From NCBI GenBank assembly GCA_011039385.1, contig DRBO01000033.1:1-32784 (forward strand): a DNA stretch of 32,784 nucleotides, in the 5' to 3' direction. Under the pieces are notes generated by a model. The model saw only the letters and a program-made list of their open reading frames with translations, made no database searches and had not been told where the DNA came from. The position numbers were made by a program, and so were the translations under genes. Source of the DNA: Chloroflexota bacterium. GTDB lineage: Bacteria > Chloroflexota > Anaerolineae > Anaerolineales > UBA11858. Numbering within the stretch: the first letter of the stretch is position 1; each line of letters opens with the position of its first letter. Positions 24,075 to 28,177 of this stretch are shown piece after piece.

Positions 24075-24881
24075 ATGCTACAAAATAGATGGGGCTTTTT
24101 TTATCTAGAAAGCAAAGAGTTTATGCGTCATTTCATCAGCAAGATCGGTCAGATACGTACAGTTGCCTTGTTATCAGCACTAACAATCGCAATCGCCCTG
24201 GCGTCCACCTTGGCCTTCACCGTGCTAGTTATCAAACTCAATGTGGAACTTAACCTCAATACGGTGTTGTTGATCTCGGTTCTGGTGACCCTGACAATCG
24301 CACCGATGATGAGCTGGTTTATAGTCGGTTTGTTCTTAAAGGTAGACCGGCTGGAAGCCGAAATGCGCCTGTTAGCTACCTACGACTCTCTGACCGGACT
24401 GCTGACCAGACGGGAGTTTCTGGAACGAGCCAATTATTTTCATAAAGTAGCCCTGAGAGAAGGGTTGCCCTATGCCCTGATCATCGCTGATCTGGATAAC
24501 TTTAAAGAGATCAATGACCATTTTGGACATCTCACCGGCGACCAGACCCTGGAGTTTTTTGGAGAAGCGATCCTCGCCAACCTGCGCGAAAGCGACCTGG
24601 CCTGCCGCTTCGGGGGAGATGAATTCTTGTTCTTCTTGCCGAATACATCCAGGGATCAAGCTCAGCAATTTGGGGATCGATTGCACAGCGTCATCACTGA
24701 GACCATTGACTGCTCCGACCTGGAAATTGATCTCTCGATCAGCCTGGGAATTGCCTGTTATCCAGGCATCCCGGCAGAAAACGTGAAGGACCTGATCTCT
24801 GCGGCAGATAATGCCATGTACCAGGCAAAAAGGTCAGGGGGGAATAAAACCCAACATTACAGTCTTGCAAGCATCCAGTGA
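24075..24881 (+). CDS. Membrane-anchored GGDEF diguanylate cyclase
   Basis: Two N-terminal TM segments; DSLTGLLTRREFLERA, CRFGGDEFLFFLP, RESD in I-site position five residues before GGDEF. Confidence 0.93.
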   Translation: MLQNRWGFFYLESKEFMRHFISKIGQIRTVALLSALTIAIALASTLAFTVLVIKLNVELNLNTVLLISVLVTLTIAPMMSWFIVGLFLKVDRLEAEMRLLATYDSLTGLLTRREFLERANYFHKVALREGLPYALIIADLDNFKEINDHFGHLTGDQTLEFFGEAILANLRESDLACRFGGDEFLFFLPNTSRDQAQQFGDRLHSVITETIDCSDLEIDLSISLGIACYPGIPAENVKDLISAADNAMYQAKRSGGNKTQHYSLASIQ

Positions 24882-24924
24882 TAATTTAAGAAGTTGTTGT
24901 TACAATTCGGCAGTAATGGGAAAC

Positions 24925-24950
24925 CGTATCTAAATACTGATACCTGCGTC
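24925..24950 (+). promoter_or_regulatory. Putative ECF-type promoter upstream of the sigma factor gene
   Basis: CGTATC-N15-GCGTC; same elements and spacing at 25572-25597. Confidence 0.6.
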
Positions 24951-24965
24951 TTATTTTAGGCAGCT

Positions 24966-25520
24966 ATGTCCAGTAACCCGGAAAAACTCCTCCAGCAGGC
25001 TCGTACATTTGACCAGGAAGCCCTGGCCAGGATCTACGACCTGTACAGCGATGCCCTGTATGCCTATGCCTACAAACATGTCGGCACAGCCCAGGTTGCC
25101 GAGGATCTCATGGCGGAGACCTTTCGCAGGTTCCTTACTGCGCTGGAACACGGCGGAGGCCCCCAGGACCACCTGCGCGCTTATCTCTACCGCATCACCC
25201 ATAATTTGATCACCGACCTCTACCGCCGGGAGCCGCCTCCTGCTCAGGAACTGGATGAAGACCGCCTGGTTGAAGACAGCCCCGGACCATCGAGTATCCT
25301 GGATGAAAAGCAAGGTTCTGAAAGGGTACGCCAGGCTTTGCGGCTGATCACACCGGACCAACGCCAGGTCCTGACCCTGAAATACCTGGAAGGCTGGAGC
25401 TCAACTGAGATCGCCCAGACAATGGGAAAATCCCTGGGGTCAGTTAAAGCCCTGCAGCACCGGGGAGTGGCTGCCTTGCAGCGGATCCTGCTCGAGGGCG
25501 AAGACCCATCCCCGGGATAA
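24966..25520 (+). CDS. RNA polymerase sigma factor, ECF subfamily
   Basis: Region 2 (LARIYDLYSDALYAYAYKHVGTAQVAEDLMAETFRRFL…LRAYLYRITHNLITDLYRR) and region 4 (LRLITPDQRQVLTLKYLEGWSSTEIAQTMGKSLGSVKALQHRGVAALQRIL). Confidence 0.95.
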   Translation: MSSNPEKLLQQARTFDQEALARIYDLYSDALYAYAYKHVGTAQVAEDLMAETFRRFLTALEHGGGPQDHLRAYLYRITHNLITDLYRREPPPAQELDEDRLVEDSPGPSSILDEKQGSERVRQALRLITPDQRQVLTLKYLEGWSSTEIAQTMGKSLGSVKALQHRGVAALQRILLEGEDPSPG

Positions 25521-25571
25521 ATCAACCTGGTCCCTCAATAACAATCCCTATTTCTAAAAAATATTTTTACC

Positions 25572-25597
25572 CGTATCCAAACAGGGTATTTGGCGTC
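25572..25597 (+). promoter_or_regulatory. Putative ECF-type promoter upstream of the DUF5667-like gene
   Basis: CGTATC-N15-GCGTC matching the motif upstream of the sigma gene. Confidence 0.6.
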
Positions 25598-25631
25598 ATA
25601 TAGGGCAGAACCATTTATACGAGGATGACTT

Positions 25632-26450
25632 ATGAACAACCACGAAATCAATCCCAAATTGAAAAAAATGCTCGAAAGCTTGCAGGATGTTCCCATAAGG
25701 GACTTGCAGGCCAGCCATACAGGAAGGGAAGATTATATGGCGCAGGTGAAAAGCCTGAATCCGCGCCGATCTGCCTCTCGCAAGTCCGCCCGACAGGGGA
25801 AACCCCTGGGAAGGCGGGCCTGGGTGACGCGCTTTGCAGCCATCACAGCTGTGATCGTGGTCGCTCTCTCCAGCCTGGGCGGGACAATCTATGCAGCCCA
25901 GGCCGCTCAACCTGATGATCTGCTTTATGGGGTTAAAACTCTCACAGAAGAAATCCAGGTCACTCTGGAAAGTGATCCAGAGGAAAAGTTGGATCTCTAT
26001 ATATCCTTCGCGAACCGCCGCCTGCAGGAAATTCAAGCTCAAATGGCTGCTGGTGAGGAAGTATCCGACAAAGCACTCGCCCTCCTGGAAAAGCACACCC
26101 AAAAGGCGCTTGAACAGACCGCCAAAATGGAAAGCCAGGGCATGGAAAAAGCCCTCCGCCAGATCGAGAACAACTTACAGAAGCAGATCCAGATCATGAC
26201 GGAACATGGAAAAGAACATCCCCAGGGTGGACCTCCAGGGCTCCTGAAGGCTCAGGAAAAGGTCCAGGAACGCCTTGAGCTAGTCGAAAGCGGAATCAAA
26301 GATCCCAATATCTTCCGTGAGAAAATGGGCAAAGATAATCCCCACAAGCAAGGCAATGGCGTCCAGGACGGTCGGGGTAATCCTGATGGAGGCCAGAGCG
26401 GCACAGAAAATCCGGGAAACAGCCCTGGCAACGGATCCAGCGGGAAATAA
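25632..26450 (+). CDS. DUF5667-like single-pass membrane protein, possible regulatory partner of the ECF sigma factor
   Basis: Single TM AAITAVIVVALSSLGGTIYAAQAA followed by QPDDLLYGVKTLTEEIQVTLESDPEEKLDLYISFANRRLQEIQ; Gly/Asn/Pro-rich tail. Confidence 0.75.
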   Translation: MNNHEINPKLKKMLESLQDVPIRDLQASHTGREDYMAQVKSLNPRRSASRKSARQGKPLGRRAWVTRFAAITAVIVVALSSLGGTIYAAQAAQPDDLLYGVKTLTEEIQVTLESDPEEKLDLYISFANRRLQEIQAQMAAGEEVSDKALALLEKHTQKALEQTAKMESQGMEKALRQIENNLQKQIQIMTEHGKEHPQGGPPGLLKAQEKVQERLELVESGIKDPNIFREKMGKDNPHKQGNGVQDGRGNPDGGQSGTENPGNSPGNGSSGK

Positions 26451-26506: not shown

Positions 26507-28177
26507 ATGAAAAAGAAAATCAACCTATTCAAATCTCTTGTCATCCTGACCATCATGGTCCTCGGCACCGGAGCAGTAGCCGGCAGCGCCCTGGCGGGTA
26601 CCCCTGAGGATCTTACCGTATTCTTGGGGCACGAAGTAGACTGCAGCGGGGGTACCGGAGAACTGGAATTTAGCCTCAACTGGGAACCAGCTGAGGCAGA
26701 GTCCTATATCTATTACGTGGATTTCGGCGACGGGGACTCGACCGGATTGGTCCCGTCGGTTGAAGCAAATGTCACTCTATCTCACAGCTACATAGACCAG
26801 GGAGATTACGAGATTTCCGTGGAAGTATTCGAAGTCAATGGAGAGAATCGATCTGGAGAATTGGAAGAAACCCTGACCCTGGAAGGCCCAGAAGTTTCCC
26901 TCACCAGCGTGCCCTCTCCACCGGTTTTTGTTGTTGGGGAAGACGGCCAGGTTGCATTTACCGCGAATGCCACTGAGGGCACACTGCCCTATACCTATGA
27001 ATGGGATCTGGATGGTGGCGAAACTACAGGACCCCTTACTTCGGAAACCGCGGCCGCGACCTACTCTGAAGCCGGGAAGTATCATGTTAAAGCCACGGTG
27101 ACTGACGGCTGCGGTTTCACCGCCAGCGCATCCCTGCCGGTAGTGGTTGCTGATCCGGAAGACGCCTGCCATCCCACTGCCCAGAAAATTGCCGACGCAG
27201 TCAGCAGCATATTCCCTGACCAGGCTGACAAGGAATACAGCTGCGAGGATATTTACACCCTGTTCGACAATGAGGGAGAAGAGAATAACCTCGGTTTTGG
27301 TCGGATGTGGATGGCCTATAATTTGACGAAATCGATCGAGCTGACCTGGGAGGAAATCCTGGCCTGGCACATGGATGAAAGCGGCTGGGGCGGCCTGCTT
27401 CAGCTCAACCGCTTCGCAGAAGTGCTCGAGGAGCAGGGTATTGGGGATCTGATGGCTTTGGTAATGAGTGAAGACTACACCCTGGGTGATGTTCGTACCG
27501 CGATCCGTTCTGTGACCCACTTTGAAGCTGATTTCGACGACGCTCTGGCCCGGGTCACCGCAGGTGCCACACCCGGTGAACTTTCCCAATTCTATCGGCT
27601 GGCAGCTGACCTGGAAGCAGATTACGAGGTGCTGGACAAATATCTGGCGGACGGCATGACCCTCTCAGAGCTCAAACACGCTGCCAGCTTCGCAGAGCGC
27701 AATGAAGTGGACTGGACCGAAATTGCCGAGGCCCGGTTATCTGCCGACAGCTGGGGTGACCTCAAGCAGGCTTACTCCATGGCTACCGATGAGATCAGCG
27801 CGGCTGAGATCCTGATCATGGGTGTGCAGGAGTACCGCAAATCCCTCCGGGAAGACTCGAAAGCCGAACAGACTGAGAAAAAGAATCAAAAAACCGCTGA
27901 GCAGCTGGTCAAGAAATACTCAGCCGACACCGAATTCGTGATGGACTTGCTCAACGGTTGTGAAGGGAATTGGGCTTGTGTGCGGAGTGCCTTGCGGAAT
28001 CAAACCTGGGAGTCCTCGGCAGATGTATCCAAAAAAGATTCCCAAACCTCCCTGCAAATTTCCTCGAAATACGGCTACTCCCAGGAAGAGGTGCTGGCCT
28101 ACTACCAGGGACCCTGTGGAGGGAACTGGTCCTGCGCCCGGGCCCATTTCCGGGATTTGAATAGGGATTCGAAGTGA
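26507..28177 (+). CDS. Secreted PKD-domain protein with C-terminal degenerate helical modules
   Basis: Signal peptide; two PKD-like domains (YYVDFGDGDSTG…; YTYEWDLDGGETTG…YHVKATVTDGCG); C-terminal repeats ending in CEGNWACVR and CGGNWSCAR. Confidence 0.85.
   Translation: MKKKINLFKSLVILTIMVLGTGAVAGSALAGTPEDLTVFLGHEVDCSGGTGELEFSLNWEPAEAESYIYYVDFGDGDSTGLVPSVEANVTLSHSYIDQGDYEISVEVFEVNGENRSGELEETLTLEGPEVSLTSVPSPPVFVVGEDGQVAFTANATEGTLPYTYEWDLDGGETTGPLTSETAAATYSEAGKYHVKATVTDGCGFTASASLPVVVADPEDACHPTAQKIADAVSSIFPDQADKEYSCEDIYTLFDNEGEENNLGFGRMWMAYNLTKSIELTWEEILAWHMDESGWGGLLQLNRFAEVLEEQGIGDLMALVMSEDYTLGDVRTAIRSVTHFEADFDDALARVTAGATPGELSQFYRLAADLEADYEVLDKYLADGMTLSELKHAASFAERNEVDWTEIAEARLSADSWGDLKQAYSMATDEISAAEILIMGVQEYRKSLREDSKAEQTEKKNQKTAEQLVKKYSADTEFVMDLLNGCEGNWACVRSALRNQTWESSADVSKKDSQTSLQISSKYGYSQEEVLAYYQGPCGGNWSCARAHFRDLNRDSK

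Follow-up and report, generated by a model that had tools for sequence, protein, structure and literature searches.

Introduction

Anti-sigma genes with a promoter that depends on their cognate sigma factor have been described before. In Streptomyces, rsbN has its own BldN-dependent promoter (PMC4255298), and in Corynebacterium glutamicum, rshA has an extra SigH-dependent promoter that was proposed to shut the response down (PMC3489674). Autoregulated promoters of ECF sigma factors in general combine a -35 element with AAC and a -10 element with CGT (PMC8103513).

Here, we analyze a locus within a window of 32,784 nucleotides (the whole stretch of DNA under study) from a Chloroflexota bacterium of the order Anaerolineales. 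A sequence-only reading had noted two copies of the motif CGTATC-N15-GCGTC, one before an ECF sigma gene and one before the next, DUF5667-like gene, and had proposed that the neighboring sigma factor reads them. The locus resembles BldN / RsbN in that an ECF sigma gene is followed by the gene of a likely membrane anti-sigma factor with its own predicted sigma-dependent promoter. However, the window sigma reaches only 128.3 bits against the curated cut-off of 206.45 of the BldN family TIGR02952, although this is its best-ranked family, and no developmental genes were seen among the targets. A profile of the N-terminal segment of the DUF5667 protein, searched against the PDB for similarity to the sigma-binding domain of RsbN, gave no match at E up to 10. 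Since such domains diverge fast, this miss does not decide against an RsbN type. As in SigH / RshA, the anti-sigma gene would have a promoter dependent on its sigma, but the C. glutamicum promoter sits inside the sigma gene, whereas the site studied here is intergenic in the window clade and within the anti-sigma gene in relatives, and promoter sequence and anti-sigma type differ. With ECF promoters in general the window shares the predicted autoregulation and the CGTC of the -10 element, while its -35 element, CGTATC, has no AAC. Judged by analogy with rsbN and rshA, the arrangement in the window is thus of a known kind, an anti-sigma gene with its own sigma-dependent promoter.

Results

Two copies of a bipartite motif flank the sigma gene

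A pattern scan found CGTATC-N15-GCGTC at 24925-24950 and 25572-25597, exactly where the sequence-only reading had placed the copies, and no other exact copy in the window. The start codons that it gave for the sigma gene (24966) and the DUF5667 gene (25632) were likewise correct. The features of the locus are as follows.

24925..24930, + strand: -35-like CGTATC of the predicted sigma promoter (scan; conserved upstream of the sigma gene in 86/115 orthologous loci)
24947..24953, + strand: -10-like CGTC plus TTA of the predicted sigma promoter, 15 nt ahead of the sigma ATG, giving a short leader that lacks a Shine-Dalgarno sequence
24966..25520, + strand: ECF sigma factor of 184 aa with just regions 2 and 4 (Pfam PF04542, PF08281)
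25572..25577, + strand: -35-like CGTATC of the predicted anti-sigma promoter (scan; conserved in orthologs)
25594..25600, + strand: -10-like CGTC plus ATA of the predicted anti-sigma promoter (conserved core)
25621..25625, + strand: Shine-Dalgarno-like GAGGA ahead of the anti-sigma ATG
25632..26450, + strand: probable anti-sigma factor of 272 aa with a single membrane helix and DUF5667 (PF18915, 2.5e-15; conserved linkage to the sigma gene)
25632..25760, + strand: putative sigma-binding segment, about residues 1-43 (two predicted helices; P-x-R-D...GR motif)
25812..25901, + strand: predicted membrane helix region, ending in a conserved YAAQ
25908..26207, + strand: DUF5667 domain, predicted to be entirely helical and placed outside the cytoplasm by the inferred topology
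26507..28177, + strand: exported PKD-domain protein, probable operon member, 56 nt after the anti-sigma gene

Allowing at most one mismatch, the window holds three matches where 0.22 are expected, a number reached in 0 of 100 shuffles. With a scoring matrix built solely from upstream sites outside the window's genus, the two sites score 30.1 and 28.0 bits; the next-best site in the window scores 9.9 bits, and the top score over 60 simulated windows was 14.7 bits. The orthologous sites refine the motif as first formulated: CGTATC and its spacing to CGTC hold, while the G before CGTC, taken as fixed, is only about 50% conserved. CGTATC-N16-CGTC is the invariant part and CGTATC-N16-CGTC-(A/T)TA the better core, with a C before CGTATC also conserved; the sequence of the spacer is not.

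A weak sigma-70-like site with TG before its -10 element lies at 24878-24906, just upstream of the predicted ECF promoter. From its sequence it could supply basal expression, the number of such sites found not being above chance. A GGDEF (diguanylate cyclase) gene at 24075-24881 also ends just upstream of the sigma promoter; in L261-L263 no GGDEF gene lies directly upstream of the sigma gene.

The sigma factor and its putative anti-sigma partner

The sigma protein matches PF04542 and PF08281 above cut-off with nothing between them; region 3 is absent, as in ECF (group IV) sigma factors. Its nearest solved relative is sigma BldN (6dxo, 2.6e-21), and its named relatives at 47-48% identity come from Anaerolineae genomes. 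The conserved, clade-specific motif upstream of its gene has the make-up of an autoregulated ECF promoter, as far as sequence can tell. That the -35 element lacks the AAC typical of ECF promoters speaks against reading it as a promoter, but AAC is not a strict requirement of the class, and some relatives do have CGTAAC at this position.

At ECF promoters transcription usually starts 6-9 nt after CGTC. In the orthologous loci the distance from CGTC to the first possible sigma start is 5-26 nt (median 14, commonest 7; 15 nt in the window), and a Shine-Dalgarno-like stretch precedes the sigma gene in only 12 of 86 loci. Given these short distances and a start at the usual place, the sigma mRNAs would have little or no leader. 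For the anti-sigma gene of the window 34 nt separate CGTC from the start codon, and GAGGA is present.

The product of the next gene does belong to DUF5667, with 57.1 bits to PF18915 against a gathering score of 27. Linkage to the sigma gene and one-pass membrane topology make it a likely anti-sigma factor. In its N-terminal segment P-x-R-D...GR is conserved in an alignment of 26 family members, and helices are predicted at residues 8-17 and 25-42 in a model of modest confidence (pLDDT about 50-60 there). A class I (zinc-type) anti-sigma domain was not found, with no Pfam match and no cysteine in residues 1-90. A fold search with the anti-sigma model, itself only partly confident, gave no match below E 0.1, and a defence-system library gave no match. 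The gene order sigma, DUF5667, PKD recurs in the window's genus.

Both sites are conserved across the order

With the sigma protein as query, 251 genomes of the order yielded 117 distinct loci, chosen by this protein alone. Of 115 loci, 86 carry the core (at least 9 of 10 bases) in the 130 nt ahead of the sigma gene, and 71 of 117 carry it in the 330 nt behind; spacers of 14, 15 or 18 nt instead of 16 give counts of only 0-1. The loci are related, so that these counts are not independent; descent accounts least for the strictness of the spacing and, as described below, for the joint changes and the codon choice. In 30 genomes of the order two exact copies lie on the same strand about 650-970 bp apart (hand count). 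The motif is thus conserved at both positions of the orthologous sigma/DUF5667 loci. Some orthologs lack one or both sites; in L012, from the window's own genus, the upstream site matches at only 6 of 10 positions.

In the window genome only the two window sites rise above chance, which speaks against a random scatter of the motif; the genome is about 85% complete and further targets could be missing. A third exact match to CGTATC-N15-GCGTC, on contig C118, was rejected, as it is without TTA/ATA and lies inside a predicted reading frame. Across the window's genus one-mismatch matches, known sites aside, are fewer than those of a reversed control pattern. In other families single sites occur ahead of exported proteins, namely a protease-like and a Tad-like protein (names assigned by eye) and, in three genomes (L109, L125, L153), small DUF5666 proteins; DUF5666 and DUF5667 may cooperate at the envelope.

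Most relatives carry the second site within the probable anti-sigma gene

The second site stands before the DUF5667 gene in the window's clade but, unforeseen by the sequence-only reading, inside it in most relatives (L098-L117, L158-L224, e.g. L111, L114, L103). Upstream of the entire anti-sigma gene it is found in one clade alone, the window's own, with six members and a support of 99. In 67 loci it lies within the DUF5667 gene, between the conserved N-terminal segment and the membrane helix. Here it keeps one reading frame in nearly all loci, as would also be seen if the DNA motif were the mere imprint of a protein motif, V-S-x5-R. We consider this unlikely, since the codon choice is extreme: at sites picked by DNA score the valine is encoded by GTA in 64 of 65 cases (9.4 expected) and the arginine by CGT in 68 of 68 (10.1 expected), and at positions picked by amino acids alone the counts remain 60/65 loci for GTA and 65/65 for CGT (hand count). 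Moreover, an internal Shine-Dalgarno sequence with an ATG just before the membrane helix accompanies the site, in 60 of 63 loci with it against 13 of 35 without (Fisher 4e-10, kinship of the loci ignored), and where the intragenic site is missing the amino-acid motif is almost always missing too.

Read from the sequence, internal site and internal start predict a form of the DUF5667 protein that has the membrane or signal helix and lacks the N-terminal sigma-binding segment. For most family members, the window's clade excepted, we lean towards the view, at somewhat better than even odds, that the sigma factor drives a promoter inside the anti-sigma gene which would yield such a membrane-bound or secreted form. 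L122 (G174) and L150 (G199) contain DUF5667 genes that stand alone and lack the N-terminal segment; each of these genes has its own copy of the motif. In L264 (G008:C134) the sigma gene is followed by two full-length DUF5667 genes in tandem, of which the first lacks a site and the second has CGTAAC-N16-CGTCATA. G008 is the sister of the window's clade, and its tandem copies are a possible intermediate in the relocation of the promoter.

The sites co-vary with the adjacent sigma factor

Variants of the -35 element track the sigma tree. L177 and L179 have GGTTCC at both sites, and the recognition helix in region 4.2 of their sigma factors reads QRR instead of QHR (H-to-R); in a clade of six loci, AGTATC occupies both. 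Of 68 loci, 49 have the same -35 hexamer at their two sites, whereas 10,000 shuffles gave a mean of 35 and a maximum of 46; relatedness of the loci contributes to this agreement. A sister sigma clade (15), with a different region 4.2, mostly has CGTCA(C/T)-N16-CGT(C/T) before its sigma genes, as observed in L031, L199, L208, L217, L227-L229, L231 and L232. From these sequences the whole sigma supergroup looks autoregulated with clade-specific elements.

Two conserved half-elements at a fixed spacing could also form an operator through which some other DNA-binding protein regulates both genes. Yet neither an inverted nor a direct repeat relates one half to the other, and the sigma start follows at a short distance of 5-26 nt. 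ECF promoters typically have a -10 element of the CGTC type, and both sites change with the sigma clade and its region 4.2. Because of this co-variation the motif is tied to the adjacent sigma and not to another regulator, which we hold to be very improbable. Cross-talk, in which another ECF sigma of the same cell would mainly read the sites, is likewise very improbable. A search with the sigma protein gives 6 matches in the window genome, and related sigmas use similar -10 elements, but it is the clade of the adjacent sigma that the -35 element tracks, the joint shift to GGTTCC included. A chance likeness or a local duplication, which has nothing in its favor beyond the identity of the two sites itself, is refuted by the recurrence of both copies in orthologous loci across the order, and the spacers of the two copies differ.

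Discussion

Two computational checks that the sequence-only reading had set for itself, on ortholog conservation and on random scatter in the genome, both came out in its favor, and co-variation with the sigma factor likewise supports the original proposal that the neighboring sigma reads the motif. We put the probability at about 0.92 that both sites are promoters recognised by the ECF sigma encoded at 24966-25520, one for its own gene and one for the adjacent DUF5667 gene. The position of the sites, their conservation, their spacing and their clade-specific co-variation are computed results. Their actual transcription, an inhibitory action of the DUF5667 protein and an envelope signal are inferred. 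The upstream promoter would drive the sigma gene itself, a positive feedback, from a transcript with little or no leader, and the second promoter would drive both the gene of the likely anti-sigma factor, a negative feedback, and the PKD-protein gene that follows. A signal at the envelope would free the sigma factor, upon which its own level and that of its inhibitor would rise, giving a sharp and self-limiting response.

In the literature searched we found no description of a promoter inside an anti-sigma gene and no work on DUF5667 or on the ECF sigmas of Anaerolineae. For an ECF sigma group of the class Anaerolineae, the analysis offers a promoter code at the level of sequence. It also provides natural pairs of recognition helix and -35 element that are directly testable, namely GGTTCC with QRR, AGTATC and CGTCAC. 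If the intragenic promoter of the relatives is real, its use would produce more of the sensor part of the inhibitor without more inhibition. The surplus might act as a built-in decoy, or the inhibitor might itself monitor it as a product of the envelope. The promoter before the whole gene in the window's clade would then convert this output into ordinary negative feedback. The intragenic promoter in relatives suggests that the sigma factor can separate the sensor of its inhibitor from the brake.
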